Positions 4,759 to 29,151 of a stretch of 36,047 nucleotides of DNA are shown one piece after another. The stretch covers positions 1-36,047 of the forward strand of contig RCNN01000580.1 of the NCBI GenBank assembly GCA_003667245.1, in the 5' to 3' direction. A program made the translations under genes and the position numbers. Source of the stretch: Heterostelium multicystogenum. Lineage: Eukaryota; Evosea; Eumycetozoa; Acytosteliales; Acytosteliaceae. Positions within the stretch are counted from its first letter, which is position 1, and each line of letters opens with the position of its first letter. Below the pieces are notes generated by a model, which had not been told where the DNA came from, did not search any database, and worked only from the letters and a program-made list of their open reading frames with translations.

Positions 4759-4763
4759 GTTCG

Positions 4764-6186: not shown

Positions 6187-6296
6187 TGTGGGAGCTGTCG
6201 AGCTTCAGCGAGGCTGCGAAGAGGCCCTTTCAGGCAATAAAGATGTCGCCTGCCAGTCCGCCATCGCAGCCTCGCCAAAGCTCGACAGCTCCCACA
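6187..6296. repeat. Array element A (first copy): REPIN-like inverted pair
   Basis: The left arm TGTGGGAGCTGTCGAGC is mirrored by a right arm ending GCTCGACAGCTCCCACA. Inner arms GCGAGGCTGCGAAG and CGCAGCCTCGC complete two REP-like hairpins in inverted orientation. Further copies lie at 6485-6594, 6783-6892 and 7076-7185. A half element (5985-5998) opens the array. Confidence 0.85.
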
Positions 6297-7604: not shown

Positions 7605-7608
7605 AGCC

Positions 7609-7788
7609 TTGGCTAAAGATATCGAGAACCCGTGCGTCTCAACCTGCCAGCTCAGTGGTGAGCTGTGCGTGAGTTGTGGACGCACCAAGGACGATATTCG
7701 CAAATGGAAAAAGATGAAGCGGCCAGAGAAGATGGCCGCTGTGCAGCGCGCAACGTTGCGCTTGAAGACGTTGAAAAAGGGCAAGTGA
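7609..7788 (+). CDS. DUF1289-family small cysteine protein, TTG start
   Basis: The product has 59 residues. Four cysteines in the pattern NPCVSTCQL...LCVSCGRT, followed by DDIRKWKKM, match DUF1289 proteins (C-x3-C...C-x2-C then IxxW). The arrangement suggests a bound metal, though the family's role is not established. TTG at 7609 is chosen because AAGGGG lies six bases upstream and no ATG fits the conserved N-terminus. It is coupled to the gene at 7233. The sequence is intact. Confidence 0.75.
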   Translation: MAKDIENPCVSTCQLSGELCVSCGRTKDDIRKWKKMKRPEKMAAVQRATLRLKTLKKGK

Positions 7789-7830
7789 CGCACCCGGTTT
7801 CAGGCCGTCAAGTACGCCCGACTGACCCCG

Positions 7831-8670: not shown

Positions 8671-8763
8671 GGGTTAAATCTTCAAAAGTTCGATTGCGGG
8701 GCTTATGGACCCATGGATGTGACTTTAGTGCGAAGCAGCGCCGCAAAATACCCTGAACACGGT

Positions 8764-9396
8764 TTACGTAAGTGACTGATAGGTTTGAAGATAAGCTCGC
8801 AGCATGCGGGTCACCTGCTGTTCCAGGCCGGCTTCAAAGGCCGCAGATGCATTGCCTTCAAGCAACGCCCGAACCGGTCCACCACCGCGCTGAGCGAGAT
8901 GGCGGCGGTAAGGGATGGGTCTTCAAACCGGGCATCCGACGCCGTCGCCAACATCGCTGCAATCGCGGCCACCACCCGCTTGTTGATCCGCGCCACAAGC
9001 TCCGCACCGCCCCGCTCACCTGCGATGGCATACAGGGCTTTGGACGCCGTCGGGTCCATCAGCTTCACGGCGAGAAAAGCCGTGACAAAACCCCGATGCC
9101 ATTTCCGCCACCGTGGTGCCCTGGTGTGATCGCACGCCTGCTCGACGGTCTCGGCCACCTGCACCAGATGCTTCTCCAATACCGCAGCAAGCAGTGCATC
9201 GCGGTTCGGATAGTACTGATAGAGACTGCCCACCGACATGCCCGCCCGCTCGGCCACGCGGGTCGTGGTGCAGCGCACCAGGCCCTGAGCGGTCAAAACC
9301 TGAAGGGTTGCCGTGTGCAGCGCTTCCACCGTCGCCGCCGACCGGGCCTGGACCGCTGATTTTCTTGGCTTTTAACGACGCTTTGAGAGGGCTCAT
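8764..9396 (-). CDS. TetR-family transcriptional regulator (frame breaks)
   Basis: An N-terminal helix-turn-helix reads ALHTATLQVLTAQGL...TTTRVAERAGMSVGSLYQYY, a classical TetR DNA-binding domain. The ligand domain includes NRDALLAAVLEKHL and AITLYAIAG-like helices (KALYAIAGERGGAELVARI). After a shift near 8880 the end reads LLEGNASAAFEAGLEQQVTR and stops at TAA (8764-8766). Other indels lie near 9340 and 9130. It is divergent from the aldo/keto reductase with a perfect 14-bp palindrome between them, so it probably represses both itself and the reductase. Confidence 0.8.
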
Positions 9397-9415
9397 GGAA
9401 TGCGAATTCTAAACC

Positions 9416-9429
9416 TGAAGGATCCTTCA
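9416..9429. promoter_or_regulatory. Perfect palindrome TGAAGGATCCTTCA, probable TetR operator
   Basis: This 14-bp perfect dyad is centred in the 71-bp gap between the divergent TetR and aldo/keto reductase genes, 20 bp from the TetR start and 39 bp from the reductase start. Next to it is an AT-rich TATTATAG stretch that could serve as a -10 region. Operator function is inferred from symmetry and position. Confidence 0.6.
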
Positions 9430-9467
9430 TATTATAGGCTTCCTCCCGTCAAGCAAGAGCCCCGACC

Positions 9468-10321
9468 ATGACCCCCAGCACATTCAATCTCGGCGATCGC
9501 ACCGTCAACCGCATCGCTACGGCGCCATGCAACTGGCCGCCCAGGCGTGTTTGGCCCGCCCAAGGACCGTGATGCAGCGCTGGCCGTACTGCGCGAGGCC
9601 GTCGCTTGCGGCGTGAACCATATCGACACCAGCGACTTCTACGGGCCGCATGTCACCAATCAGATTATTCGTGAGGCACTGCACCCGTATAAAGACGATC
9701 TCACGATCGTCACCAAGGTAGGCGCCCGCCGTGGCGACGATGCGCGCCTGGTTCAACGCTTCGTCGAAGGCCGAGCTGACCCAGGCCGTGCACGACAACC
9801 TGCGCAACCTGGGCCTGGATGTGCTGGACGTGGTGAATGTGCGGGCCATGCACGGCGTGATGGGCACTGCCGAAGGCTCGATCGAGGAACCCCTGAGTGC
9901 CATTGCCGAGCTGCAACAACAGGGCCTGATACGCCATATCGGCATCAGCAACGTTACCCCGACGCAGGTCGCCGAGGCGCGAAAAATCGTGCGCTTCGTG
10001 TGCGTCCAGAACCTGTACAACATCGCCCACCAACACGATAACGCGATGCTCGACGAATTGGCCCGGGACGGCATCGCCTATGTGCCATTCTTCCCGCTGG
10101 GCGGATTTTCGCCAGTGCAGTCAGCGGTGTTGTCGAACGTTGCACAGCGCCTCGGCGTCACCCCGATGCAACTGGCCCTGGCATGGCTGCTGCGCCGTTC
10201 CCCCAATATCCTGCTGATCCCGGGAACGTCCTCGGTCACCCATCTACGGGAAAACATCGCGGTGGGCGAGCTGGATCTTTCGGGCGAGGTACTCGCAGAG
10301 CTGAACACCCTCGCAGGCTGA
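9468..10321 (+). CDS. Aldo/keto reductase, YdbC-like (frame breaks)
   Basis: This cytosolic NADPH-dependent oxidoreductase has a TIM-barrel fold. Visible motifs are YGAMQLAG (after two G deletions near 9510 and 9535), NHIDTSDFYGP with the catalytic Asp and Tyr, TIVTKVG with the catalytic Lys, and the cofactor-binding GISNVTPTQVAEA and ILLIPGTSSVTHLREN. A third frame change is near 9745. The restored length is about 284 residues, close to E. coli YdbC. It is divergent from the TetR gene, suggesting induction by a reactive aldehyde or xenobiotic; the natural substrate is unknown. Its stop is 3 bp from the convergent trmK stop. Confidence 0.85.
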
Positions 10322-10324
10322 CCC

Positions 10325-11020
10325 TCACGCCAGCAGTTCTGCGATCCACCGCGCCTGCTGGGCGACCTCTTGCACCTTGTCCTCGGGCACCGCTTGCCGC
10401 GCCTGGGCGAAGTCGCTCAGGGTCTGCTGTTTGTGGCGCAGGATGCGCTGCCACTTGAGCAGGAATTCCGGGCTGCGGGTCTGCATTTGCAGCGGGCCGA
10501 AGTACAGTTCTTCGGCGGTGTAGGTCACAGGCCCGGCGTGCTCGGCAACGATGATTTCGTAGAAGAATCGGTTCTCCCGCAGCAGCTCTTCGCACACGAT
10601 GCGGTAGCCGTTCTCCATCAACCACTGGCGCAACGGTTGCTCGCCGCCGTTGGGCTGCAGCACCAGGCGCTCCTCGCCACTGAGACGCGCCTTGTCGCTG
10701 TCGAGGATGTCGCGGATGGTCTCGCCGCCCATGCCGCAAATGCTGATCGCGGTGATCCCGTCTCCCGGCTCGATCGCCGCCAGGCCACTGGCCAGGCGTA
10801 CGGTGATGTGTTGCTCCAGCTCGTTCTCGCGCACCGTGCGCTCGGCTGCGCGAAACGGCGTCAGGGCCACCTCGCCCGCCACCGCCGCCACGATGGCGCC
10901 GCGGCGCATCAATGCCACCGGCAGGTAGCCGTGGTCGGAGCCGATATCCGCCAGGCGCGCCCCGGCGGGGACGTGCGTCGCCACGCGCTCAAGGCGCATG
11001 GACAATGTGTGTTCGTTCAA
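10325..11020 (-). CDS. trmK: tRNA (adenine(22)-N1)-methyltransferase TrmK
   Basis: This is an intact class I SAM methyltransferase of COG2384. The SAM motif is LADIGSDHGYLPVALMRRGA, the motif IV region is ISICGMGGETIRDIL, and LVLQPNGGEQPLRQWL follows. The family methylates N1 of adenine 22 in the D-loop region of tRNAs. TTG at 11020 is chosen because AAGGA precedes it by about six bases and family proteins begin close to NEHTLSMRLERV; the ATG at 11071 has no ribosome binding site. The C-terminal 60 residues are helical and charged, as in homologues. Confidence 0.85.
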   Translation of the reverse strand: MNEHTLSMRLERVATHVPAGARLADIGSDHGYLPVALMRRGAIVAAVAGEVALTPFRAAERTVRENELEQHITVRLASGLAAIEPGDGITAISICGMGGETIRDILDSDKARLSGEERLVLQPNGGEQPLRQWLMENGYRIVCEELLRENRFFYEIIVAEHAGPVTYTAEELYFGPLQMQTRSPEFLLKWQRILRHKQQTLSDFAQARQAVPEDKVQEVAQQARWIAELLA

Positions 11021-13695: not shown

Positions 13696-13723
13696 CGAAA
13701 TGGACCTGCGGCTGAGTATTCCC

Positions 13724-15230
13724 ATGAAATCACGCAAGAAAACCGTCAATCCGATTGGATTGGATGACATCACCATCGTCGACGACGCCAAGATGCGCAA
13801 GGCGATCACCGCCGCTGCGCTGGGCAATGCCATGGAGTGGTTCGACTTCGGGGTGTATGGCTTTGTCGCCTATGTGCTGGGCAAGGTGTTCTTCCCCGAA
13901 GCGTCTCCCAGCGTACAGATGATCGCGGCCCTGGCGACCTTCTCGGTGCCGTTCCTGATTCGCCCGCTGGGCGGCCTGTTCTTTGGCCGGCTGGGGGACA
14001 AATACGGCCGGCAAAAAGGTCCTGGCGGCGACCATCGTGATCATGTCCCTGAGCACCTTCGCCATCGGGCTGATCCCCTCCTATGACTCGATAGGCATCT
14101 GGGCGCCGATCCTGTTGCTGCTGGCCAAGATGGCCCAGGGCTTCTCGGTGGGCGGTGAGTACACCGGTGCCTCGATCTTCGTCGCCGAATACGCCCCGGA
14201 CCGCAAGCGCGGCTTCCTCGGCAGTTGGCTGGACTTCGGCTCCATCGCCGGCTTCGTGCTCGGCGCGGGCGTGGTGGTGCTGATTTCGGCGGTAATCGGC
14301 GAAGACGCCTTCCAGTCCTGGGGCTGGCGCCTGCCGTTCTTCCTCGCCCTGCCGCTGGGCATGATCGGGCTCTACTTGCGTCATGCCCTGGAAGAAACAC
14401 CGGCCTTTCAACAGCACGTGGAGCAACTCGAACAAGGTGACCGCGAAGGCCTGGCGGGCGGCCCGAAAGTCTCGTTCAAGGAAGTCGCCACCAAGCACTG
14501 GCGCAGCCTGATGACCTGTGTCGGCGTGGTGGTGGTGACCAACGTCACGTACTACATGCTGCTCACCTACATGCCGAGCTACCTGTCGCACAACCTGCAC
14601 TACAGCGAAAACCACGGCGTGTTGATCATCATCGCGATCATGGTCGGCATGTTGTTCGTGCAGCCGATGATTGGCTTTGTCAGCGACAAGATCGGGCGCA
14701 AACCCTTCATTCTGTTCGGCAGCATCGCGCTGTTCTTTCTCGCCATTCCGGCGTTCATGCTGATCAACAGCGGCAAGCTCGGGCTGATTTTCTCGGGGCT
14801 GCTGATCATTGCGGTGGTGCTCAACTTCTTTATCGGCGTGATGGCGTCCACCCTGCCGGCGATGTTCCCCTACCCACATCCGCTACAGCGCGCTCGCCAG
14901 CGCCTTCAACATCTCGATCCTGATTGCCGGCCTCACGCCAACCGCCATGGCCTGGCTGGTGGAGACCACTAACAACCTGTACATGCCGGCCTATTACCTG
15001 ATGGTATTCGCCGTACTGGGGCTTTTCACCGCCCTGACCATGAAGGAAACCGCCAACAAACCCCTGCGCGGCGCGGCACCGGCGGCCGTCGGATATCGAG
15101 GAAGCCAAGGAGCTGCTGCAGGAGCACGAAGACAATATCGAGCAGAAGATCGAAGATATCGACGCGCAAATCGCCGAGCTGGAAGCCAAGCGTGAAAAAC
15201 CTGGTGCAGCAACATCCACGCATCAACTGA
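13724..15230 (+). CDS. proP: Osmosensing proline/glycine betaine:H+ symporter ProP (frame breaks)
   Basis: The sequence is close to E. coli ProP throughout. It includes DITIVDD, MEWFDFGVYGFVAYVLGKVF, RPLGGLFFGRLGDKYGRQ, MAQGFSVGGEYTGASIFVAE and the C-terminal SDIEEAKELLQEHEDNIEQK, then EDIDAQIAELEAKR. That last part is the cytoplasmic coiled coil that tunes osmotic activation in ProP. The restored length is about 501 residues. Indels lie near 14015, 14868, 15085 and 15198. The ATG at 13724 matches the conserved N-terminus (KSRKKTVNPIGL); the upstream ATG at 13700 is unlikely. The protein imports proline, betaine and related osmolytes at high osmolality. Confidence 0.92.
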
Positions 15231-17493: not shown

Positions 17494-19317
17494 TCAAATT
17501 GCAACGAAGTGGCCCGCGGCGACCTCGCGGTAACTGATCGGCGGAGCCTTGTAGCCCACCTCGTAAATCCTGCTGGGCACGCTCTCCTCCATCAGGCTGA
17601 ACGGCTTTCTGGGCACGTTCAGGTCCGCCGAGGGCACCGCGCTCAGCAACCTTTGGGTGTAAGGGTGCTGAGGCTGCTCGAACACTGACTGGCGTGGCCC
17701 GATCTCAACGATGCGTCCGTGGTACATCACCCCGACCCGGTGGCTGACCCGCTCGACCACCGCCAGGTCATGGGAAATAAACAGGAATGAAATGCCCATC
17801 TCGCGCTGCAGGTCCTGCAGGAGATTAATCACCTGGGCTTGAATGGACACGTCCAGCGCCGAGACGGCTTCATCGGCGATGATCAGCTTCGGAGACAGAG
17901 TCAGCGCCCGCGCGATGCAGATCCGCTGTCGCTGCCCACCCGAGAACTCGTGCGGATAGCGTTGTGCATGCTCCGCCGACAGCCCCACCTTCTCCAGCAA
18001 TATTCGCACCTGCTTTCGTGCTTGCGCGCCATGTGCAATGCCATGAACATGCAGCGGCTCCAGCAGGCTGTTCTCGATCGTGAGACGCGGGTTCAGGGAT
18101 GCATAGGGATCCTGGAAGACCATCTGGATATCGCGGCGCAGCGAGTTCATATCGCTCTTGTTCAACGTCGTAAGGTTCTTGCCACCGAAAACGATATTCC
18201 CGCCCTGTATCGGCATCAGCCCGGCAATCGCACGAGCGCTGGTGGATTTCCCGCACCCGGACTCGCCCACCAGGGCCAGCGTTTCACCTGAGTAGATATC
18301 AAAGTCGATGCCTTCGACGGCATGCACACGGCGCCGGACCTTCCCGAGGAGACCACCTTTGAGGTCGTACCGAATGGACAACGACTCGACTCTGAGCACC
18401 GGCGGACTCTGGTAGTCCGGGGCCACGCCAGGCGCAGGTTCTGCACCCGCTGCGACGTCATCATCGATCAAGGCAAATTTTGCGGGAAGTTGAGTGCCAC
18501 GCATTGAGCCGATTTTTGGAACAGCCGCCAGCAATGCCCGGGTGTAGGGCTGCTTGGGCTCCTGCAGCACTGCCCTTGCCGGACCTTGCTCAACGGTCTC
18601 GCCTTTCTTCATCACCATCACATGGTCTGCGACTTCCGCCACCACGCCCATATCGTGGGTGATAAAGATCACACCCATGGCCAGGCTATCTTGCAGCTCC
18701 TTGATAATCCGCAGGATCTGCGCCTGCACCGTCACATCCAACGCTGTGGTCGGCTCGTCGGCGATCAGCAGTGTGGGCTCGCAGACTAGCGACATCGCAA
18801 TCATGATCCGTTGGCGCATGCCGCCGGAAAGCTCATGGGGAAACCGGTTCATGACCTGCTTCGCATCCGGAATACGCACCAGGTCCAGCATGCGTAATGC
18901 CTGGGCTTCGGCTTGCGCACGGCTGCACCGCTGATGCAGCAAGATGCCTTCGATGAGTTGCGCGCTGATCTTGAAGACCGGATTCAGCGAAGTCATGGGC
19001 TCCTGAAAGATCATCGACATGGACGAGCCCCGCAGTGTGCGCATGACAGACTCGGGCGCCGCCACCAGGTCGACAATCTGGTTATTCCTGGTTTGCAGCT
19101 CCATCGAGCCCGAAAGCACCCGTCCGCCGGCGCGCTTGATCAGGCCCATCATCGCCATTGAGGTGACGGATTTGCCGGAGCCGGACTCACCCACGATCGC
19201 CAGCGTCTGACCGCGCATCACCTCGAAGGACACATCGCGCACCACCGGCGTCTCGCGCCCTCTGGTGCCGAAGCCGACACTCAGGTTTTTCACCCGGGCT
19301 ACCAAATTCTCGTTCAT
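17494..19317 (-). CDS. Peptide/opine-type ABC importer, fused double ATPase (DppD-DppF / GsiA-like)
   Basis: An intact 607-residue protein carries two nucleotide-binding domains. Domain 1 (about residues 5-260) has Walker A GESGSGKS, signature LSGGMRQR and Walker B LLIADEPTTALD. Domain 2 (about 310-560) has GESGCGKS, FSGGQRQR and LIIADEAVSALD. Each domain ends with the oligopeptide-ATPase tail (KQPYTRALLAAVP and QHPYTQRLLSAVP). In Dpp/Opp systems these are usually two proteins; the fusion resembles glutathione importer GsiA. AAAGGAG precedes the ATG. It is the last gene of the operon, 11 bp after the lyase gene. It powers import through the two permeases encoded upstream. Confidence 0.92.
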   Translation of the reverse strand: MNENLVARVKNLSVGFGTRGRETPVVRDVSFEVMRGQTLAIVGESGSGKSVTSMAMMGLIKRAGGRVLSGSMELQTRNNQIVDLVAAPESVMRTLRGSSMSMIFQEPMTSLNPVFKISAQLIEGILLHQRCSRAQAEAQALRMLDLVRIPDAKQVMNRFPHELSGGMRQRIMIAMSLVCEPTLLIADEPTTALDVTVQAQILRIIKELQDSLAMGVIFITHDMGVVAEVADHVMVMKKGETVEQGPARAVLQEPKQPYTRALLAAVPKIGSMRGTQLPAKFALIDDDVAAGAEPAPGVAPDYQSPPVLRVESLSIRYDLKGGLLGKVRRRVHAVEGIDFDIYSGETLALVGESGCGKSTSARAIAGLMPIQGGNIVFGGKNLTTLNKSDMNSLRRDIQMVFQDPYASLNPRLTIENSLLEPLHVHGIAHGAQARKQVRILLEKVGLSAEHAQRYPHEFSGGQRQRICIARALTLSPKLIIADEAVSALDVSIQAQVINLLQDLQREMGISFLFISHDLAVVERVSHRVGVMYHGRIVEIGPRQSVFEQPQHPYTQRLLSAVPSADLNVPRKPFSLMEESVPSRIYEVGYKAPPISYREVAAGHFVAI

Positions 19318-19328
19318 GAGGCGCTCCT

Positions 19329-20834
19329 TTAATCGACGATCGCCGAGATGGCCGCGTCAAGGTCGGCACGGGATTGATCGACCTTGCGCCGGCTCTGCGC
19401 AACCCACTCGCGGTCCTGCTCCAGCTCGTTCTGGGCGATCGACAATAATCGCCGGACCTCGTCCGGGCCGACGCCGCCCGCGGAAGTGCGGGTCTCGACA
19501 AAACGGCGCGGGTTCAAAGCATCGCGGACCTGGGCATCCGAGTAGCCCAGGGTTGAGCCGACAGTTTCCACGCTGGCTTGATCCAGTGCGGCGCCGGTCA
19601 CCCCGGCAGGAGCCACGCCCTCGTACAGGCAGTTACGCACCAGGCGGGCCACGATGTGGTGGACCTGGCGGAAAGAGATGCCCCGGTCCCGAACGATCAC
19701 ATCGGCGAGGTTGCTGGCGGTGCACCAACTCCCGGAGAGCAGGGCTGTCATCCGGTCCTCATGCACCACCAGGGTTTCAATGATGCCGGTAAACAGGTCC
19801 AACATGCCTTCGGTGGTGGCCAGCGCATCATGGATCAACGGCAGGTCGCGCATCGCCTGGTCGCCGGTGCCTTCGGACCGGAAAGTGGCCAGGGCCGTGC
19901 TGAGCCAGGTCACCGATCCACCTGCAGCTTTCTTGATGGTTTCCAAGCCGCTGGGGTTTTTCTTCTGCGGGAAAATACTGCTGGTGCCGCAATAGCCGTC
20001 GTGGCTTTCCACCGTTCCAAATTCGACGCTCGACCAGATATGCAGGTCGGTTGCCAGGTCGTTCAGGTCGGCCATGACAAAGGACAATGCGCCAATCGTC
20101 TCTGCTGCGTACCATGCTTCGCGGCCCAGCTTGGAGTTTTCTACCAGGCTGTCGAACCCCAACAGGTGCGTGGTGCGCCCACGGTCCAGCGGCCAGGACG
20201 TGCCGGCCAGGCCGACGGCACCAAGGGGGTTGCGATTGACCCGGGTGTAAGCGTGCATCAAGCGGCTGAAGCTGTCGTGCAGCCTCGACGTAAAACTCAA
20301 AAGGTAGTGGCCGAACACCCAGGGCTGGGCATGCTGCATATGGGTGTAGCCGGGCATGATGGTGCCCGAATGCGTGGAGGCCTTCTGAATCAACGCCACC
20401 TGGAACTCATTGATACGGTCCAGCACCGCCAGGATGCGCTTGCGGTCGTACAGGCGGCGTACCGTTGCCCCTTGGTCTATCCGGCTGCGGCCGGTGTGCA
20501 TCTGCCCGGCCGAGTCTTCGCCGATCCGGGAGAAAAGGTACGATTCAACCTGAAGTAGGAAGCTGCCTTTCTTTACATCAAACGGGAAGTCGGCGGGAAC
20601 CATGTCCCGAATCAACCGCAGCTCCGCGAGGATGGCTTGCCCGACCGACACAGAAAGAATCTGCTGTTCAACCAGCATCACGGTGTGCGCCAGGTCCACT
20701 TCGACAAACTCGTGAAACTGACGTTTCTCGGTCTCAAGTGCCGGAATATCATGGTACTTGACCATGCGTTCAGCGGGAGGAGCACTCAGGCGAGCGTCGG
20801 TTAACAGTGTTTCGTTGGCATGTAAATTCGACAT
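19329..20834 (-). CDS. Argininosuccinate-lyase-like enzyme (fumarase/aspartase superfamily)
   Basis: An intact 501-residue protein. Superfamily regions are GQMHTGRSRIDQGATVRRLY (ASL has GRSRND here), MPGYTHMQHAQPWVFGHYL with the catalytic His, and the flexible loop GTSSIFPQKKNPSGLE that holds the catalytic serine. The enzymes cleave a C-N bond by beta-elimination and release fumarate. It is longer than housekeeping ASL (about 457-470), with an N-terminal extension and Ile in place of a substrate-binding Asn. Its place inside an ABC import operon argues for catabolism of an imported N-substituted aspartate-like compound, as in EDDS lyase, and not arginine synthesis. The start is 5 bp after the binding-protein gene's stop. 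Confidence 0.8.
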   Translation of the reverse strand: MSNLHANETLLTDARLSAPPAERMVKYHDIPALETEKRQFHEFVEVDLAHTVMLVEQQILSVSVGQAILAELRLIRDMVPADFPFDVKKGSFLLQVESYLFSRIGEDSAGQMHTGRSRIDQGATVRRLYDRKRILAVLDRINEFQVALIQKASTHSGTIMPGYTHMQHAQPWVFGHYLLSFTSRLHDSFSRLMHAYTRVNRNPLGAVGLAGTSWPLDRGRTTHLLGFDSLVENSKLGREAWYAAETIGALSFVMADLNDLATDLHIWSSVEFGTVESHDGYCGTSSIFPQKKNPSGLETIKKAAGGSVTWLSTALATFRSEGTGDQAMRDLPLIHDALATTEGMLDLFTGIIETLVVHEDRMTALLSGSWCTASNLADVIVRDRGISFRQVHHIVARLVRNCLYEGVAPAGVTGAALDQASVETVGSTLGYSDAQVRDALNPRRFVETRTSAGGVGPDEVRRLLSIAQNELEQDREWVAQSRRKVDQSRADLDAAISAIVD

Positions 20835-20839
20835 TTAAA

Positions 20840-22419
20840 TCACCGCTCAATAAGTTCTACATTCGTCAAATCGATGGTCCCTTCATAATCGACATCCAGG
20901 CCATTCAACGCTTTACGCACACCAATTATTTGCTCCTGGTCAAACAGCGGCAGATTGTCCGGGTCTTGTTCCCATAGAATCTGCTGAATCTGGCCGTAAT
21001 AGGACATGCGTGTTTTTTCATCCAGTTCACGCGAGGCCAACTGAAGTAATTTGTCTACCTGAGGGTTGCTGTAACCCGTGAGATTCTGCGGGTCGCCGCT
21101 GGACAACTTTCGACGCAAACGAATATCCGCGTCAGATATGCCCGTTCCCAGTAACCACATGTTTGCGTCATTGCTACCTTTGCCCGTGCCCTTGCCCGGC
21201 TCGGGGCGATACAAGTTCTTTTGATACGTTGCCCATTCCCATACCTTAAACTCGGTCTTCAGCCCCACGGCGTTAAGATAGCCTTGGACAACTTCCGAGA
21301 CCTGGCGATCTTTGGTATAGCGTCCCGCCGGGGTCCATATAACTACGGTGCCTGGATAACCGCCTGGATATACCTCGTTAATTATTTTTCTTGCCGCATC
21401 AGGGTCGTACTTCACCGGAGGGAATTCACGTCGGGCTTGCGTACCCTCCGGAAATGGGCCAGTGGGTACTTTTCCATATCCCAACAACACTTTGTCGACC
21501 AATGCCTGGCGATCAATCGCCATACTCACCGCCCTCCGTATGCGCGGGTCATCAAAGGGCGGTTTGGTCAGGTTCATTTCAAAGAACACCTGGAATGTGC
21601 TGGGTACCCGCAGCAAGGTGGATTTATTCAGTTCCTTTAATTCGATAGCCGCCTCGGGCGATAAATTTGCCGCGATATCCGCATTGTTCGTTCGCAGCTC
21701 TATGACTCGGGAAGAATCTTCCCTGACCGGACGGAACACGATGGTTTCCGGTTTTGCCGTTGTTCCATAAAAAGCGTTGTTCTTATGAATAACGGCCTGG
21801 TCGTTGGGTATCCAACTATCAAATACGTAGGGCCCGGTACCGACGGGATGGTGCCCATAAGCCCGTCCATATTTAACGACAGCGGCCGGACTGCTGATTG
21901 ACGAAGATTCTTTTGCCAGTAACTCCAACATTGTGGGTGACGGATTTTTTGTGGTGATGCGTAACTCATTCGGCGCTAGCGCATCCACCGAAGCTATATC
22001 CGCATAGTAGGACCGGTGCGGAGAACCGAGCTTGGGGTTCATGATTCGGTCCAGGTTAAACTTCACCGCTGCAGCATCAAACGCCGTGCCGTCATGAAAG
22101 GTAATTCCCGGTTTCAGGATAAAAATCCATTGCCGTCCATCCTCGGACCTTGACCATGACTGCGCCAAATCAGCTACAAACGTGTTATGCCCGTGACCGT
22201 CCCATGCGACCAACCGATTAAACAGGTGATTAATCACGTTATAGGAAGGCACACTGCGCGAAATCGCTGGGTCCAGGTATCGATATCAGCGCCTTGAACG
22301 AATGTCAGCTTCTTCAGGTCTTTGGCGTTGGCAACAAACGATAGGCCCGCCGACAGTCCAAGGATGCCGACAACAGCGAAACTCCGTATCAATACTTCCA
22401 GGCAATTCAGACGCCGCAT
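20840..22419 (-). CDS. ABC transporter substrate-binding protein, family 5 (DppA-like; one frame break)
   Basis: A signal peptide (FAVVGILGLSAGLSFVANA) precedes a periplasmic SBP_bac_5 protein: VINHLFNRLVAWDGHGHNTF, LAQSWSRSEDGRQWIFILKP, ITFHDGTAFDAAAVKFNLDR, GTGPYVFDSW, FEMNLTKPPFDDPRIRRAV and SMAIDRQALVDKVLLG. The size is about 526 residues. One C is missing near 22270, splitting the first 55 residues from the rest; the repaired joint reads DIDTLDPAIS. The family binds peptides, nickel chelates, opines and similar ligands. It is operon gene 3, and its codon use is visibly more AT-rich than its neighbours. Confidence 0.9.
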
Positions 22420-22481
22420 AATCTTTCTCGCTTGATAATTCTGGTGGACACACAGGGCGTGTTTAACCGCGCCGAACTCAT

Positions 22482-23345
22482 TTATGCGTTACGTGATTTC
22501 GGGTCGATATAGTCTCGCAACGCATCCCCCACAATGTTGAAACTCAATATGGTCAAAACCAGTGCAAATCCGGGCGCAATCAATACGTAGGGATGGGTGG
22601 TCAATAACGGCCGCGACTCGGCAATCATCGAGCCCCACTCCGGGGTGGGCGGCGGCGGGCCAAGCCCCAGAAAGCTGAGCCCGGAACCAATGAGGATTGC
22701 TTCAGCCAGCGAGACGGTGGCCTGGATAATGACCAGCGAACCGATATTCGGCAGGATATGTATCAGCAGCAGCCGCAGATCGCTGACGCCAATCGACTTG
22801 GAGGCCAATACAAACTCGCGGTTTCTCAATGCCATGACCGGCCCGGCAAAGAAACGCACGTAAATCGGGATCGTTGAAATGGCGATGGCCAGTGTCAGGC
22901 TTACTATGCTGTTGCCCGCCACCGTGATGACCAGAATGGCAACCAGTGTCCGGGGAAATGCAATCATCGAGTCCATGACCCGCATCACCACCCCGGCGAT
23001 GGCGCCGTTTGTAATAGCCACACGCCGCACCTAAAGCGATGCCAATGACCATCGCAATGCTGACACTTGAAACTGCGACGGTGAGCGTAATTCGTGCCCC
23101 CACACGACTCGACCCAACAAGTCACGGCCCAATTGGTCCGTGCCGAGCCAGGAACTTGCACCGGGCTCGACAAGGGACGTTGATAAGTTGATCTTGGTGA
23201 CCGAATCCCAATCAAACAACAAAGGGGCAGCTATCGCCGCAGCAACCATCACCAGGATCACGATCAATGAAGCAAACGCGAACCAGCGCTTATTGGAAAT
23301 AAGGAAACTGACAAAGCCCAACCGATATTTTTTCGGAAGTTTCAT
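22482..23345 (-). CDS. ABC transporter permease, DppC-like (frame breaks)
   Basis: The N-terminal helix (FASLIVILVMVAAAIAAPLL) and the SSWLGTDQLGRDLLGRVVWG motif are typical of DppC/OppC. After indels near 23095 (a G missing from a G run) and 23015 the protein continues DSMIAFPRTLVAILVITVAG and the EAA-like loop EFVLASKSIGVSDLRLLLIHI. It ends DPKSRNA after GLSFLGLGPPPPTPEWGSMI. ATG 23345 is preceded by GAGG and lies 7 bp after the DppB stop; an in-frame ATG at 23387 would overlap DppB. It forms the channel with the DppB-like partner. Confidence 0.88.
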
Positions 23346-23352
23346 ATCGGCC

Positions 23353-24273
23353 TCAGTTGTAAGTGACGCGAGGGTCGAGGACGCCATAAACCAAATCCAC
23401 CATTAAGTTGATAATTACCACCACCGCGGCAAACACAAGAACTGTGCCTTGGACGACATAAATATCCCGAGCCATGATTGCATCAATCAAGAGCCGCCCC
23501 ATTCCCGGCCAGGCAAATACTGTCTCGACAATAACCGCGCCACCCAGTAACCGGCCGAAGTCCATACCGAATACTGTCACCAATGGAATGGCCGCATTGG
23601 AAAGTGCATGCTTGAGTACTACCTTGTAACTCGGTACACCTTTCGCATAGGCAGTACGAATATAATCTTCCCTCAGCACATCCATCATGGTGGATCGGGC
23701 CAGCCGTGAAAAAGTTGCAACATACGGCAAACCAAGTGTCAAGGCCGGTAATATCAGGTGTTGCAGCCCGCCTCTGCCGGTCGGCGGCAACCATCCGAGG
23801 TTGGCTGAAAAGATCAGCATCAATATCAGTCCCAGAAAGAAGCCAGGCATTGATATGCCCAGAACTGCAACGGTGGTCAGCGAACTATCAAGGAAGCCTC
23901 TGGGCTTCAAAGCGGCCGCAATACCGAGGGGAACGCCAATGATGACGGCAAGCAACATTCCGGCAGCGGTCAGTTCAATCGTGGCGGGAAGAGTTCTGGC
24001 TATACCTTCGAGCACGGGCGTGAATGTCTGGAATGACTCGCCAAAATCACCCACGACAACTTTCCTGACATAAATAAGGTATTGATTGATTAGCGGCTTA
24101 TCCAATCCGTAGTTTTGCCTTATTTGCGCAACATCTTCCGCTGTTGCATCCGGACCTGCTGCCAGCTGCGCAGGATCTCCCGGAATAAAGTGCATGACCA
24201 GAAAGACCACAATGGAGACTCCCAGCAGCATCGGAAGCAGAAGTAACAACCTGCGGACGGTATAATTCAGCAC
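23353..24273 (-). CDS. ABC transporter permease, DppB-like, GTG start
   Basis: An intact 306-residue inner-membrane permease. It starts LNYTVRRLLLLLPMLLGVSI, with the family pattern HFIPGDPAQLAAGPDATAED, the GLDKPLINQYLIYV segment, GESFQTFTPV, and the EAA loop RTAYAKGVPSYKVVLKHAL. It ends VDLVYGVLDPRVTYN. AGAGGA precedes the GTG by six bases. It is the first gene of the ABC-lyase operon and is divergent from the LysR regulator across 198 bp. Confidence 0.92.
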   Translation of the reverse strand: MLNYTVRRLLLLLPMLLGVSIVVFLVMHFIPGDPAQLAAGPDATAEDVAQIRQNYGLDKPLINQYLIYVRKVVVGDFGESFQTFTPVLEGIARTLPATIELTAAGMLLAVIIGVPLGIAAALKPRGFLDSSLTTVAVLGISMPGFFLGLILMLIFSANLGWLPPTGRGGLQHLILPALTLGLPYVATFSRLARSTMMDVLREDYIRTAYAKGVPSYKVVLKHALSNAAIPLVTVFGMDFGRLLGGAVIVETVFAWPGMGRLLIDAIMARDIYVVQGTVLVFAAVVVIINLMVDLVYGVLDPRVTYN

Positions 24274-24377
24274 GCGCTATCCTCTTTTTTATTTTTACTT
24301 AAGCGGCACCCGATATTTAATAACGGGAACGGCTTTTCTTTGGTAAAACCACGCAACTAAATCATCGCGCCGTTACA

Positions 24378-24388
24378 TGCTTATAGCA
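24378..24388. promoter_or_regulatory. Short palindrome TGCT-TAT-AGCA upstream of ABC operon
   Basis: This 11-bp dyad is one of two symmetrical sites in the divergent region between the permease and LysR genes. It lies about 105 bp from the permease start and could be a secondary activator site. Confidence 0.3.
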
Positions 24389-24411
24389 AACCGGTAACAG
24401 GTTGGACGCAC

Positions 24412-24426
24412 ATAACAAAATGTTAT
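24412..24426. promoter_or_regulatory. LysR-type T-N11-A box (ATAAC-N5-GTTAT)
   Basis: ATAACAAAATGTTAT is a perfect 15-bp dyad that contains the T-N11-A pattern of LysR recognition sites. It lies 45 bp before the LysR ATG at 24472 and about 139 bp from the divergent permease GTG, a usual position for autorepression and activation of the divergent operon. Confidence 0.6.
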
Positions 24427-24471
24427 ACGCTCGCAAAAAATGCGCCCTCCAACATTCGATCGAGAGCTACA

Positions 24472-25393
24472 ATGAAACTCAATCCTCGCCAATTGGAAGC
24501 TTTCAGGGCGGTCATGCTCACCGGAAGCATGACTATCGCCGCCGAGGCACTTCAGGTCAGTCAACCGGCCATCAGCCGGCTCATCCGCGACCTCGAAATT
24601 GTCCTTTCCCTTCGACTGTTTCGCCGTGAAGGCAATCGCCTCATTCCCGGGCGGAAGCACAGGTGTTGTACGCGGAGGTGGACAAGTTTTATCAAGGCAT
24701 AGAACGCATCGAGCGGGTTGCAGAGGACCTTGTGACGCTGCGCACCGGCACATTGAGGATCAGTTCAATGAGCACGCTGGGGCTCAGTGTGGTGGCTGAG
24801 GGGGTATGCCGATTCGCGCGAAAGCACCCCGAGGTCAGAACCTCGTTGGATGTGCGCAACTCGGTGGGCATCCTGGAACTGACGTCTGCCAACCAGATCG
24901 ATATTGGTTTTGTGCAGATTCCTTCAGGGGAATATCCCGGGATCCAGGTGATCAACCTGCCACCCATCAGCGCGGTGTGCGTGATGCCGGCCAACGATAT
25001 GTTGGCCACCAAAGACGTGGTGACCCTGGAGGATTTGCACGGGCGACGCCTGATTACCCTGAACGCCAACAATCCTTTGCAGCGACGCATCACATCAGCC
25101 ATGGAGGCTCGGGGTGTTGCAGGCGTCTCCAGCGTTGAAACCACCGCCGCGCACTCCGCCTGCGGAATGGTGTCCGGGGGGCTCGGCATCACCGTGTGTG
25201 ATCCATTCACCGCCTCCTACTCGAAATACCCGGGCCTTACGTTCAGACCGCTGGACCAGGACATACCCTTCGAGTTTCGATGGTATTTCCGGGTCACCAG
25301 CAGCGCTCCAAGCTCGCCTCGGATTTCATGCAGGTCATGGAAGGTATCTTCAGGTCGGAGTTTATTTCCATGATTCCCCGTGAAGCGTACTAA
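24472..25393 (+). CDS. LysR-family regulator, NocR/OccR-like (frame breaks)
   Basis: The N-terminus [20 protein letters not shown] and the helix-turn-helix [18 protein letters not shown] resemble opine-responsive NocR/OccR regulators. After an indel near 24650 it continues [20 protein letters not shown] and [16 protein letters not shown]. After another near 25315 it ends with [13 protein letters not shown] before TAA 25391-25393. The restored length is about 305 residues. It is divergent from the ABC-lyase operon and is the likely substrate-responsive activator. Family membership is firm; the effector is unknown. Confidence 0.85.
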
Positions 25394-25405
25394 TCGCGAG
25401 TCACT

Positions 25406-26392
25406 TCAGTTCGTTGAGTAATTCAGCGGCACCCATTGCCACGCGGCGCCCTGACCACGCAAATGCCCCAGGCCGGGAAACGAGAGGTGCGCCGCGCCGA
25501 CCAGCGCGCCCTCTTTCGCAGCCAGGCTGAACACGGTCTCGCGGGCAGTGGTGGCGGCTTTCTTGTCCGTATCAAACTCGATAGTCACCGACGGGTCGGC
25601 AAACTGCACGGCACCGGCGTGGATCAGATCACCGGCGACAATCATCTTCTGGCCTTTGCTCTCAACCAGGTAGCTGGTGTGCCCCAGGGTATGGCCATAG
25701 CTGGACAGCGCCTTGAACCCCGGCAGGATCTCCCGCTGCCCTGGAAAGGCTGGAACTTTCCAAGCGCGATATACGGGTTCAAGGAAGCCATTGCACCCTT
25801 CGCGAACTCGGGTACGAAAGCTGTTGGCGTCGGCCGAGGCAGGCTCCAGCCTCGCCGGCGAGAGCCAGTAATCGGCGTCACGCTTGTCGGCGTGTACCGT
25901 GGCGTTCGGAAACACCATCACCCCTTCGGCAACCAGCCCACCCACGTGGTCCGGGTGCATGTGCGTGAGAAGGATGTCATCGACCTGCTCCGGCTTGTAG
26001 CCGGCTGCCTGCAGGTTGGCCGCGAGCTTGCCCAGGGTCGGCCCGAAGAGCGCACCAGCGCCGGTATCGATCAGGATGAGCCGAGTGCCGGTATTGACGA
26101 GATACGCGTTCGTCGAGGTCTCGGTGGGCACCCCGAGGAACGCCTTGCGCAGTGCGGTAGTGGTCTTGGCAGCCGGCTCATTCAGCAATTTGTCGAACGG
26201 TGCATCGATGGTGCCGTCACTCAGCGCGGTGACCTCGAAATCTCCAAGCATCGTGCGATAGTAACCAGGGGCCTGGGTTTTGACTTGGGGCGCGGCGGCA
26301 ACTGCCACCGCCGGTGCCGCGATGGCTCCCAGTGCCAGGGCAGCAGCAAGGGCCGTGTAATTCAACACGCGGGTAAATGTCAGCTTGGTCAT
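25406..26392 (-). CDS. Metallo-beta-lactamase-fold hydrolase, methyl-parathion-hydrolase-like
   Basis: A signal peptide (LAAALALGAIAAPAVAVAAA) precedes a protein strongly resembling the MPH/OPHC2 group: APGYYRTMLGDFEVTALSDG, KLLNEPAAKT, YLVNTGTRLILIDTGAGALF, the dinuclear-metal motif LTHMHPDHVGGL, YGHTLGHTSYLVES, VAGDLIHAGAVQFADPSVT and AAHLSFPGLGHL. The frame is open for 328 residues, but about 25745-25825 reads nonsense; a neighbouring frame there reads AKGAMASLNPYIALGKFQPF, the family sequence. Two compensating indels are therefore present. Relatives include organophosphate hydrolases and lactonases; the native substrate is unknown. A LysR gene lies upstream on the same strand. Confidence 0.85.
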   Translation of the reverse strand: MTKLTFTRVLNYTALAAALALGAIAAPAVAVAAAPQVKTQAPGYYRTMLGDFEVTALSDGTIDAPFDKLLNEPAAKTTTALRKAFLGVPTETSTNAYLVNTGTRLILIDTGAGALFGPTLGKLAANLQAAGYKPEQVDDILLTHMHPDHVGGLVAEGVMVFPNATVHADKRDADYWLSPARLEPASADANSFRTRVREGCNGFLEPVYRAWKVPAFPGQREILPGFKALSSYGHTLGHTSYLVESKGQKMIVAGDLIHAGAVQFADPSVTIEFDTDKKAATTARETVFSLAAKEGALVGAAHLSFPGLGHLRGQGAAWQWVPLNYSTN

Positions 26393-26508
26393 GGTGCAGC
26401 TCTCCAGTTGGAATCGGCGGCATCCTATTCAAGCGTTTTTTATAGTTGAAATCGAAACTCCGCACGCCAGGTATGTGTGGCGTAGATACCTGCCAGGGCC
26501 TGATGTCG

Positions 26509-27414
26509 TCAGGAAAGCACGCAGAGCTTGAGTTGTTCGCGCAACCAGAGATGTGCCAGGTCCTTGTCGAACCGTGGATGCCAGGCAGAGAACAAACTGA
26601 AGTCGCGCACCTCGAGGGGCAGAGCAAGGGCCGCCAGCGAGCGCTCATAACGGCTCAGGAAACGGGACGGAAGCACACTTACACAGTCGCTGTTCTGCAG
26701 CAGCAATGGAACGATGCTGTAGTAAGGCACCGACACCGCGACACGGCGCGCACGCCCCTTCTGCGCGAGCACATCATCAATAAAACCGTGAAAGCTGTTC
26801 ACGGCACCCGACACCACCACATGCTCCAGGCCCAGGTATTCCTCCAGCGTTGGTGGCGCGGATCCGCGAGGGTGATCGGCGCGCTGGGCCATCTTGAATT
26901 CTTCCTGCAGCAGCAACTCGTGCGACAGGTTCCCGATACGGCTGTGTGATACCAGCGCGACGTCAATCTCGCCGCTTTCCAACTGATCGCCAAGCAACAC
27001 CTGGTCGATCGCACGTATCGAAACCCGGATGCCCCCAGGACTCGCAGCATGCACAAGCTGCACCAGCCGGGGCGCGACGATCGCAGCGGCGTTATCGTTC
27101 GCGCCAATCACAAAGGTCCGGTCCGACTTGGCAGGATCAAAGCATGGAAGGTCACCGACCACCGTCCCCAGTACCTGCAACGCCTGGCGCAACGGCTGAC
27201 GCAAATGTTCGGCACGTGCTGTCAGCACCATGCCTTTTCCGGACTGAGCAGGCATCAATAAAGGGTCGCCGAACAGGTCACGCAACCGCGACAACTGCGC
27301 GGATAACGCCGACTGCGTCAGGTTGAGCTTCGCCGCCGCCCGCGTGACGTTCCTCTCCTCAAGCAAGACGCTGAGGGAAGTCAGGAGCGCGAGGTTGTGT
27401 CCAGTCAGGTTCAT
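26509..27414 (-). CDS. LysR-family transcriptional regulator
   Basis: An intact 301-residue protein. It has the helix-turn-helix LLEERNVTRAAAKLNLTQSALSAQLSRLR, then RTFVIGANDNAAAIVAPRLV opening the sensor domain, GEIDVALVSHSRIGNLSHEL, and SDCVSVLPSRFLSRYE near the end. The NodD/NahR-like type II layout (early NVTRAAAKLNLTQSA) suggests control of a degradative enzyme. The MPH-like hydrolase gene lies 116 bp downstream on the same strand and is a plausible target, though not divergent. The short fimbrial gene ends 22 bp upstream. Confidence 0.88.
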   Translation of the reverse strand: MNLTGHNLALLTSLSVLLEERNVTRAAAKLNLTQSALSAQLSRLRDLFGDPLLMPAQSGKGMVLTARAEHLRQPLRQALQVLGTVVGDLPCFDPAKSDRTFVIGANDNAAAIVAPRLVQLVHAASPGGIRVSIRAIDQVLLGDQLESGEIDVALVSHSRIGNLSHELLLQEEFKMAQRADHPRGSAPPTLEEYLGLEHVVVSGAVNSFHGFIDDVLAQKGRARRVAVSVPYYSIVPLLLQNSDCVSVLPSRFLSRYERSLAALALPLEVRDFSLFSAWHPRFDKDLAHLWLREQLKLCVLS

Positions 27415-27436
27415 CGGGTTGATCCACTGCCATCTC

Positions 27437-27817
27437 TCAAGGTGACGTTAATGTAATCAGATACTGCCCCGACGTCACAGGCCTCCCTTGGCCATCCACC
27501 AACGCATATTGCTGCTGGTAATAGCGGTCTCCCCGGCCACTGTCGGCGACCAGCTTCACGTTCACGGCGCTGTGGTCGAGGGCCGTGACCGAGCCCACCG
27601 GTTGCACACTGCGCACGCTGATGGCACTTCCGCGTGCGGACGTAGGGCAATTGTTGAGTTTCATCCCGTTGGCCACGGCGAGCGGCGTGCAAGACGCCTC
27701 GACAATGCTGCCGTGAAAGTTAATGACTCCCTGCCCCACCGGGCTCGCGGCCATGCAGGCACCGGACAGGCTGAACAACAGGCCAACATGGATTGCAGAC
27801 ATTCTCTTGATGCGCAT
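27437..27817 (-). CDS. Type 1 fimbrial subunit-like protein, 126 aa
   Basis: An intact small exported protein. The signal peptide is MSAIHVGLLFSLSGACMAAS, and mature pilin-like features are GQGVINFHGSIVEASCTPLA and KLNNCPTSARG. The two mature cysteines would form the typical pilin disulfide, and the end reads GQYLITLTSP. It is shorter than normal fimbrillins (about 160-180 residues), and no chaperone or usher gene is nearby, so it is an orphan subunit. Two ATGs are possible; 27817 is chosen because GGGAG lies seven bases upstream. That site is inside a strong hairpin. Confidence 0.7.
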   Translation of the reverse strand: MRIKRMSAIHVGLLFSLSGACMAASPVGQGVINFHGSIVEASCTPLAVANGMKLNNCPTSARGSAISVRSVQPVGSVTALDHSAVNVKLVADSGRGDRYYQQQYALVDGQGRPVTSGQYLITLTSP

Positions 27818-27863
27818 GCCGATACTCCCGGGGGTGATAAAGCCTATGCCCCGGGATATCGGC
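27818..27863 (-). promoter_or_regulatory. Leader hairpin covering the fimbrial gene's ribosome binding site
   Basis: On the coding strand the arms GCCGATATCCCGGGG and CCCCGGGAGTATCGGC pair over 15 bp with one bulged base and a 15-base loop. The second arm includes GGGAG, the ribosome binding site of the fimbrial gene, and ends directly at its ATG. A structure of this strength should limit translation unless opened. Confidence 0.55.
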
Positions 27864-27908
27864 CGAGCAGCAGGTTATTTTAAGATTTGTCTGATGTTAG
27901 AAGCGGTT

Positions 27909-27927
27909 TTTCCAAAGACTTTGGAAA
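27909..27927. terminator. Hairpin just after the MFS gene stop
   Basis: TTTCCAAA-GAC-TTTGGAAA is an 8-bp stem with a 3-base loop, 2 bp beyond the minus-strand MFS stop. On the minus strand the following bases are AAACC and not T, so it is not a canonical terminator. Confidence 0.3.
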
Positions 27928-27929
27928 TA

Positions 27930-29151
27930 TCAGTGCCCGCCAACCACAGGTTTACCGTGGGCCCGGTGCCCCGGCTTGAAGCCATGGAGTCGCGCGCACC
28001 ACACAATCGCGAAGCCCACCGCCAGCAACACCAACATTGCCCATGGGAAAGACGCCACGCCCCAGGTATCCAGCAACACGCCACCCACCACGCCGCTTCC
28101 GGCGATCGCGCTGTTCCATGCCACCACGTTCAGCGACAGTGCCACGTCCGCTCCATCGCCTGCCGCGTCCGCCAATGCGGTTTTGCAGCAACGTCGCAGC
28201 GCCGCCGAAACTCAAGCCCCACACCGCCACGCCGAGGTAAATAACGCCCGGCACTTGCGCCAGAAAACCAAACGCCAAACACGTCGCCGCAAAGCCCGCC
28301 AGGCTGACCAGCACCGTCTTGCGCAACGCCACATCCACCAACCGGGCAGTCAGCCAAATCCCGAGCAGCGCCGCTATACCAAACACCAACAACACCAGAT
28401 CCACACGGTCCACCAAGCCCGCCGGGGCCACAAACGGCGCGATGTAGGTATAGAGAATGTTATGGGCGAGCATCCATGAGATCACCACCGCCAGCACTGG
28501 CCGTACGCCCGGCGTGGTCAGCACCTTGCGCAACGGCATGCGCTGATGGGCCGACTGGCCGGGGTAATCCGGCACTTTCACCAGCACCCAGACAATCAGC
28601 ACCAGGGTCAGTGCCGACATGATCCCGAAGGTGGTGCGCCAGCCCACCAGCCCACCCAGCCAGGTGCCCAGCGGTACGCCGAGTGACAGGGCAATCGGCG
28701 TTCCTACCATGGCCAGCGCCAACGCCTTGCCCTGCTGATGTGGCTCAACCATGCGCCGCGCATAGCCGGCCAACAAACTCCAGGCCAGCCCCGCCGCCAT
28801 CCCGGCGAGCAACCGCGCCAGCAACGTCAGCCCGTAGTGGGAGGACAGCGCCGTGATGGAGTTGAACAGCATAAAACCGACGATGGTCAGCAGCAGCACA
28901 TTGCGTCTACGCCAGCCGCGAGTCGCGATGGTCAGCGGGATCACCGCCAGCACCGAGCCCAGCGCATATGCGGTGACCATCTGCCCGGCCATGGAGGCTG
29001 AAACTCCCAGCCCATCGCTGATCAGCGGCAACAGGCCCGCCGGCAGGGTTTCGGTGACGATGCAGATGAAACCTGTCATGGCCAGGGCGAGCAAGGCGCC
29101 GACGGGCAAGCGGTCGGGAACGGCGTCTTCCAATAAGGTGGTTGAGGGGGT
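27930..29151 (-). CDS. MFS exporter, DHA1/AraJ-SotB-like (one frame break), GTG start
   Basis: An inner-membrane transporter of about 406 residues. It reads LLALAMTGFICIVTETLPAG, SMAGQMVTAYALGSVLAVIP, TIATRGWRRRNVLLLTIVG, LARLLAGMAAGLAWSLLAGY and VGTPIALSLGVPLGTWLGGL. After an indel near 28175 it ends NSAIAGSGVVGGVLLDTWGV and GKPVVGGH at TGA (27930-27932). GTG 29151 has AAGGAG seven bases upstream. It is divergent from the TetR gene at 29277, with two operator-like repeats in between. Sugar or drug efflux is likely; the substrate is unknown. Confidence 0.85.

Follow-up and report, generated by a model that had tools for sequence, protein, structure and literature searches.

C-N lyases of the argininosuccinate lyase (ASL) superfamily and the uptake of opines and aminopolycarboxylates by ATP-binding cassette (ABC) importers are both of a kind already known. 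In the noc and occ operons for nopaline and octopine, an ABC importer takes up an N-substituted amino acid, the enzyme is an opine oxidase, and NocR and OccR sense N-substituted amino acids. Agrobacterium degrades iminodisuccinate (IDS) by a pathway made up of an epimerase plus a lyase. Ethylenediaminetetraacetate is taken up by an ABC importer, and its periplasmic binding protein may accept other aminopolycarboxylates, according to PMC7312458. Here we examine a stretch of DNA of 36,047 nucleotides, called the window below (contig RCNN01000580.1, positions 1 to 36,047 of the forward strand, assembly GCA_003667245.1 of Heterostelium multicystogenum), which contains an operon of Dpp/Gsi-type ABC importer genes arranged around a gene for an ASL-like lyase, with a LysR regulator gene diverging from it. 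We propose with moderate confidence, on comparative evidence, that this cassette is inducible, imports an opine-like N-(1,2-dicarboxyethyl)amine (an N-substituted aspartate) and cleaves its C-N bond with release of fumarate. Like the noc and occ operons the locus has a divergent LysR gene of the same class; unlike them it has a Dpp/Gsi-type importer, and the lyase stands where they have the opine oxidase.

Organization of the operon

The five operon genes occupy the minus strand from 24273 to 17494 in the order permease B, permease C, binding protein, lyase and ATPase, which is the order given in a preliminary description of the window. The features are as follows.

17494..19317, minus strand: fused double ATPase, GsiA-like; 607 aa with two ABC_tran and two oligo_HPY stretches
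19329..20834, minus strand: ASL-superfamily lyase of clade A; 501 aa, PF00206 (Lyase_1) and PF14698 (ASL_C2)
20840..22420 (upper limit approximate, from genome G285), minus strand: family-5 periplasmic binding protein, GsiB-like; PF00496
22482..23388 (upper limit approximate, from G285), minus strand: permease C; PF00528, 301 aa in G285
23353..24273, minus strand: permease B; 306 aa, PF00528 and PF19300
24412..24426, no strand assigned: operator-like inverted repeat ATAA-N7-TTAT, the sole exact match in the window
24471..25393 (start inferred from G285), plus strand: LysR regulator of NocR/OccR type; 307 aa in G285

The lyase gene is separated from the binding protein gene by 5 bp and from the ATPase gene by 11 bp; in the intact copy of the locus 62 bp lie between the permease C and binding protein genes, and the two permease genes as called in G285 overlap by 35 bp. 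The lyase, ATPase and permease B genes are unbroken frames in the window, while three others are split between frames: LysR, whose helix-turn-helix and effector domains fall in separate frames; permease C; and the binding protein, whose open frame reaches only to 22252, with its N-terminus in another frame. The intact copy is in the Pseudomonas genome G285 (6.9 Mb; the genus of the P. fluorescens PS833 record), which aligns with the window DNA over 16,012 bases at 99.3% identity with 21 gaps. In this genome LysR, permease B, permease C, binding protein, lyase and ATPase are all open at 307, 306, 301, 526, 501 and 607 aa, respectively. Its lyase protein is 100% identical to that of the window. 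The frame breaks would most simply be indel errors of the contig. That these three genes are true pseudogenes is unlikely because the frames are open in a 99.3% identical genome and the lyase and ATPase are unbroken in the window itself. The 21 gaps over 16 kb against so similar a genome suggest that the window sequence is rich in indels.

Relationship of the lyase to argininosuccinate lyase

The window lyase and ArgH have in common the superfamily domains (the Lyase_1 match of the window lyase scores 119 bits), the catalytic residues and the ASL_C2 domain. The window lyase differs in being longer (501 aa against 464 aa for most Pseudomonas ArgH rows, as the preliminary description had anticipated), in belonging to another clade, in lying beside import genes and in coexisting with a true argH. 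Lyases were sampled as every sixth P row plus P0121 and one in seven of L029-L081, restricted to open frames of 380-640 aa, and 134 of 180 rows were kept. Removal of 12 P rows and four duplicates gave a tree of 118 rows, in which the window lyase falls in a clade of 44 rows, clade A, apart from ArgH (Shimodaira-Hasegawa-like approximate likelihood ratio test, SH-aLRT, 99). A second tree of 69 rows kept 23 of the 44 clade A rows and 18 of the 35 ArgH rows and left out L115, L116 and P0240 (long branches), six group E rows and two of the five second-argH rows. Here clade A (23 rows) and ArgH (21 rows, a second argH-like group included) were each supported at 100/100, as was the clade of ethylenediaminedisuccinate (EDDS) lyase (15 rows), which does not contain clade A; a further group, clade D (10 rows), was supported at 100/99.

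Genuine ArgH proteins score 576-645 bits on the argH model TIGR00838, and a separate argH in this range was found in all 26 genomes counted that carry the close lyase family; these stand for 26 of the 27 loci, all but L019. With G285, whose separate argH scores 641.6 bits, the count is 27 of 27.

Residues were compared between 44 clade A rows and 35 ArgH rows, with L115 and five second-argH rows assigned to no group; lyase numbering follows the window and ArgH numbering P. fluorescens PS833. Clade A conserves Ser117, Arg118, Asp120, Thr164, His165 (97%), Ser285-286, Lys291, Asn293 and Glu298, and the window lyase keeps all of the superfamily catalytic residues (Thr164, His165, Ser286, Lys291, Asn293 and Glu298). 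Its loop reads SSIFPQKKNP, with Ser285 and Ser286 in 100% of the 44 rows; we take the SSxxPxKxNP loop with its catalytic Ser to be the signature of the aspartase/fumarase superfamily. The reported Asn-to-Ile change in the GRSRID motif is present and general in the clade, Ile119 occurring in 97% of the 44 rows against Asn115 in 100% of ArgH rows. Other fixed or near-fixed replacements are Gly90-Ser91 for ArgH Glu87-Asp88, Leu93 for His90, Phe288 for Met285, Gly322 for Tyr322, Gly324 for Lys324 and Arg329 for Glu328. The ArgH residues lost in clade A are presumably those that hold the arginine half of argininosuccinate. In delta-crystallin, argininosuccinate is contacted at its fumarate half by His162, which Glu296 holds in position (PMC2779060), and the equivalents of both are retained in clade A.

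Judged by these comparisons, the window lyase is not a housekeeping ArgH, as it belongs to a separate clade, a separate argH is present in 27 of 27 genomes and ArgH-conserved residues are lost. The preliminary description, which had argued the same, is thus borne out: the enzyme lies outside the ArgH clade and the genomes checked carry another argH. Of 7995 candidates scored, 1118 matched; the best 120 of these all share at least 64% identity with the window enzyme, and the names shown for them are all "argininosuccinate lyase". Many database proteins of this name are probably misnamed.

Two further sets of ASL-like genes were seen. A second ArgH-like gene (504-536 bits; L110, L111, L132, L133, L134 and G285:C1:5267331-5268686) is present in addition to the true argH in several of these genomes. 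Another group scores 207-230 bits to argH in six Pseudomonas genomes (L127, L128; G001:C194, G002:C36, G004:C1, G285:C1), and Gln replaces the ArgH Asn of GRSRND in 6 of 6 rows of this group, two of them from Pseudomonas. An ASL-like protein listed in a putative Pseudomonas siderophore cluster in PMC8719888 may be a member of this Gln-bearing group.

EDDS lyase and clade D

The best-scoring solved relative of the window lyase is EDDS lyase of Chelativorans sp. BNC1 (6g3d-6g3i, 239.5 bits, 33% identity), ahead of the best ArgH entry, 2e9f (189.8 bits). We take 6g3d to be EDDS lyase because 6G3H, named in PMC12363623, has the same sequence, and the identical row P0121 carries the Chelativorans BNC1 name. 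EDDS lyase is likewise a non-ArgH enzyme of similar length and is a lyase of an N-substituted aspartate. Six of its residues are given as near the substrate, Arg112, Asn113, Gln159, Asn288, Asp290 and Tyr320 (PMC12363623). The window lyase keeps Arg112 and Asn288, with Ile, His, Ser and Gly at the other four positions. Asn113 and Asp290 are, from the alignment, the telling losses, because Gln159 and Tyr320 vary even within the EDDS clade, each being present in just 37% of its 16 rows. Membership of the window lyase in the EDDS-lyase clade is rejected by the tree.

In two Pseudomonas (L140, L141), a Bosea (L139) and a metagenome genome (L137), a clade D lyase gene lies inside an ABC operon, flanked by permease and ATPase genes, and the binding proteins of these operons belong to family 3 (amino-acid type). 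The L137 lyase was put in D by BLAST rather than by the tree, scoring 503 bits to D against 284 to L115 and no more than 244 to groups A, B, C and E. The LysR proteins beside five clade D lyases are of the same class as the window LysR, and in four genomes (G009, G021, G022, G023) a distance of approximately 9.5 to 15.4 kb separates the A and D lyases. In L137, sarcosine-oxidase-like and DAO proteins are encoded between the two. The clade D parallels and these neighbours point to N-substituted amino acids as a common theme, short of proof.

On the Agrobacterium plasmid L116, a lyase placed with clade D on a long branch follows a MmgE/PrpD protein, which among solved structures matches IDS-epimerase best (206 bits, against 148 for IRG1). 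L116 thus resembles the Agrobacterium IDS pathway (epimerase PDB 2hp0) in that genes for amino-acid uptake and for an epimerase-like protein accompany the ASL-like lyase, but its lyase goes with clade D and not with A. The window operon has no IDS epimerase gene beside its lyase, and the MmgE/PrpD protein was found in L116 only.

Two side observations concern loci with both lyases or with additional ones. In L117, L118, L024 and L025 a GroEL-like gene adjoins the clade A lyase, and AtuA-like and DUF4387 genes lie between the A and D lyases; these families were tested in L117 and assigned in the others by clustering. At a contig end in L137 (18452-19132), a third, incomplete ASL-like frame lies beside the clade A lyase and is nearest to clade D (142 bits) and the EDDS clade (139 bits).

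Conservation and spread of the cassette

Gene order was compared among 30 loci, 27 of at least 51% identity plus three plasmid loci of 50-68%. The five-gene cassette is found on one strand in 15 of the 30, plus G285, in nine Pseudomonas, Pandoraea, Burkholderia, Bradyrhizobium, Bosea, a Rhizobiales isolate and Roseibium. The linkage of the lyase to an importer, claimed from the window alone, therefore holds across families. All 15 have an adjoining LysR gene, which shares the strand of the operon in Roseibium and diverges from it in the other 14. Nine further loci (L010, L012, L013, L015, L019, L021, L027, L028, L113), of Cupriavidus, Variovorax, Comamonas, Hydrogenophaga and kin, have LysR and lyase genes followed by a TctC receptor gene, confirmed by Pfam in 9 of 9. 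TctC-type receptors take up carboxylates. The remaining six loci (L011, L014, L023, L024, L025, L114) were assigned to neither layout; in L165, TctC lies behind the lyase and LysR beyond TctC.

Porin genes accompany some of these loci. An OprD-type gene follows the ATPase gene in two Pseudomonas loci (L006, L022) and a general porin gene does so in Burkholderia L009 and Pandoraea L008; a porin gene lies 1.6 kb downstream in L016 and upstream in L113. In Roseibium (L112:12334-14740), the cassette is followed by genes for a cystathionine gamma-synthase-family enzyme and a dehydrogenase nearest to the tryptophan dehydrogenase ScyB (below cut-off).

The family is patchily spread, with matches in 4 of 298 genomes of the genus of G020 (E 1e-100), 10 of 398 of the family of G008 (1e-140) and 2 of 397 of the order of G016 (1e-120). 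These samples include the starting genomes, so that 3, 7 and 1 of the matches, respectively, were known beforehand and the true shares may well be lower.

The regulator and its putative operator

Comparisons of the binding protein, LysR and operator were run on selected loci. The preliminary description likened the regulator to NocR and OccR, and the likeness holds for the intact protein: it falls in a clade of 34 rows (SH-aLRT 99, in a quick tree of 48 rows with long outer branches) that includes the LysR beside nocP on a nopaline-type plasmid (L162, 39% identity), its pTiAF3.44 counterpart (40%), an Azospirillum LysR and the LysRs beside clade D lyases. We read the L162 protein as NocR from its place next to nocP, nocT, nocQ and nocM, the plasmid record leaving the LysR unnamed. 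The best PDB match is the OccR effector domain, 5vvh; the best NCBIfam model for the L022 LysR is an unspecific LysR model, below cut-off.

Upstream of the operon stands ATAACATTTTGTTAT or a close form. Across 24 loci (447,088 bases) there are 18 copies of the pattern ATAA-N7-TTAT, and 17 of them lie between LysR and the operon. The site is exact in 17 of 22 cassette or LysR-lyase loci and has one mismatch in L010, L011, L013, L017 and L028, where the evidence is weaker because one mismatch in such a gap is not rare by chance. Beyond the 24 loci, the site has one mismatch in L019, L020, L021, L113 and L165 and three in L014, and it is exact in the Azospirillum gap. Because the motif is common to both, the ABC-type and TctC-type loci are probably under one kind of sensor.

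The importer

The window importer resembles GsiABCD in its fused double ATPase, family-5 binding protein and two permeases, and differs from it in the embedded lyase, the adjoining LysR gene and the scores of the Gsi models, all four of which are below cut-off (GsiA 856.6 bits, cut-off 1077; GsiB 227.4, 594; GsiC 329.7, 463; GsiD 151.3, 484). GsiA is nevertheless the best NCBIfam model for the ATPase. The binding protein and permease C were incomplete in the window when scored; the unbroken L022 binding protein reaches 237.8 bits on GsiB (cut-off 594).

Proposed function and alternative explanations

In the function we favour, an external compound would reach the periplasm, in some relatives perhaps through the porin whose gene follows the cassette. 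The family-5 binding protein would capture it and the ABC transporter import it. In the cytoplasm the clade A lyase would take the beta proton and cleave the C-N bond, releasing fumarate to the tricarboxylic acid cycle, with an amine or amino acid as the other product. LysR would sense the compound and switch the operon on via the ATAA-N7-TTAT operator. We infer the fumarate product, C-N rather than C-S or C-O cleavage, the compound's role as inducer, the degradative direction and the substrate class. The preliminary description had already proposed an importer and lyase for an N-substituted amino acid; the distinct enzyme, its importer linkage and the regulator kinship stand, while argininosuccinate and EDDS have lost ground as substrates.

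Several points weigh against this proposal. The lyase passes the argH model (337.1 bits, cut-off 279.5), and the position of clade A among its relatives is not fixed: A with D is supported at 77/50, and in approximately unbiased (AU) tests A with the EDDS clade gives p 0.376, a sister relation neither shown nor rejected, and A with ArgH p 0.155. Long branches meet where clades A, D, EDDS and ArgH join. An earlier AU test (p 4e-5 for A with ArgH) was set aside as it left the second argH-like group outside; with that group included, clade A as sister to all ArgH is not rejected. The closest relatives of the binding protein are GsiB and YliB, which are glutathione-type, and 5u4o rather than opine or chelate binders, but it does not reach the model cut-off; its nearest solved relatives are 5u4o and 1uqw (YliB). 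The LysR tree had just 14 outside rows, drawn from fetched flanks, and the lead of OccR in the PDB list is small (52 bits, against 50 for the next entry, a full-length Rubisco-operon regulator). The operator-like site has two mismatches in both Ti loci and one to three in five clade D gaps. ATAA-N7-TTAT is also of a general LysR type and supports LysR control, not opines as such, because the same motif is given for CynR, another LysR protein, in PMC5002191. Finally, the enzymes beside the lyase vary among loci and do not converge on a single product. An attempt to name the amine product from the neighbours failed for this reason, the neighbours ranging from OprD and general porins and TctC to flavin adenine dinucleotide (FAD) oxidases with a sarcosine-oxidase-like subunit (L023) and a pyridoxal phosphate (PLP) enzyme with a dehydrogenase (L112).

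Some of these observations would suit other substrates. The lyase might cleave another N- or O-substituted acid to a product other than fumarate, such as a substituted fumarate, still within a catabolic uptake cassette. Ile119, Gly322, Gly324 and Phe288 are nearly fixed and unlike both ArgH and EDDS lyase, and mandelate-racemase-like genes lie near the lyases of the approximately 50% identical clade members L024, L025, L114 and L166, the last also with a sugar-type binding protein; yet the counterparts of the delta-crystallin residues at the fumarate half are kept, and we consider this reading unlikely. Slightly less likely in our view is C-S cleavage of a succinylated thiol, for example S-(1,2-dicarboxyethyl)cysteine or -glutathione, imported by a glutathione-like transporter. 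NocR and OccR, the kin of the LysR, sense N-substituted amino acids instead, the importer is replaced by a TctC receptor in 9 of 30 loci, and the sub-threshold Gsi scores extend to all four importer proteins. GsiA and GsiB are nonetheless the top models for the ATPase and binding protein, YliB is among the nearest solved relatives of the latter, and XcbC of coenzyme M synthesis ranks second among the NCBIfam models of the lyase (261 bits, cut-off 575). The Cys/Met-metabolism PLP enzyme and amino-acid dehydrogenase behind the Roseibium cassette would also fit a thiol, but the PLP enzyme has no homologue in the other 29 loci by clustering.

Argininosuccinate, which the preliminary description had listed as a possible substrate, was dropped as the main reading on residue grounds. 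A second ASL for the use of external argininosuccinate would agree with the TIGR00838 score, and a peptide-like amino acid could suit the importer; with ArgH Asn115, Tyr322, Lys324, Glu328, Asp88 and His90 all replaced by residues fixed or near-fixed in clade A, and a true argH already in every genome checked, it is very improbable. EDDS, proposed alongside it, is disfavoured by the loss of Asn113 and Asp290 in an enzyme outside the EDDS clade. Least probable of all is a synthetic role, in which the lyase joins an amine to fumarate to form a metal-binding compound and the transporter recovers the metal complex. Opine-type LysR control and the porin gene of some relatives suit catabolism, and no synthetase or receptor was evident among the genes called beside the G285 cassette, part of which were identified. 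The siderophore cluster with its ASL-like protein (PMC8719888) and the use of EDDS lyase in the synthesis direction (PMC12363623) are the points in its favour.

Origin of the contig and neighbouring genes

The window is contig C517 of an assembly of 29.7 Mb in 528 contigs, and the rest of that assembly contains no further match above the argH cut-off (best other, 70.6 bits). The contig is therefore probably a bacterial (Pseudomonas) stray inside another project's assembly. A record titled Bacteriophage sp. (UNVERIFIED), from human faecal samples (L149, MT836058.1), matches window 17511-28291 over its positions 1-10782 at 99.46% identity, so this segment is taken to be bacterial DNA; the match ends near the end of the ATPase gene, different open frames lie beyond, and the record may be mislabelled or chimeric. 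Beyond the LysR gene, 25406-26392 encodes a metallo-beta-lactamase-fold protein akin to AidB-type lactonase (177 bits, cut-off 360), a 75% identical counterpart of which adjoins the cassette in L005. At 13700-15220 a major facilitator superfamily transporter gene is split between frames; it is 508 aa in L148 (12484-14010), and its plasmid matches are annotated proP.

Implications

In the literature titles and abstracts searched, where most subscription journals lay outside coverage, no description of clade A, the cassette or the operator was recognised. A broader reading, which we offer tentatively and hold to be possible but doubtful, is that clade A is a new C-N lyase family that forms, with an opine-type sensor, a self-contained module that consumes a natural opine derived from fumarate. 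The opine would be an N-(1,2-dicarboxyethyl) amino acid, for instance a fungal chelator like toxin A or aspergillomarasmine. This core of enzyme and sensor would have been fitted to unrelated importers (Dpp-type ABC and TctC), with distant members beside sugar-type ABC genes and clade D repeating the design in amino-acid-type ABC operons. If the proposed function is true, the cassette would be a catabolic route for fumarate-derived opines or chelators, LysR and its operator would be a possible biosensor, and the lyase would offer a new scaffold for C-N lyases such as serve in the synthesis of N-substituted aspartates.

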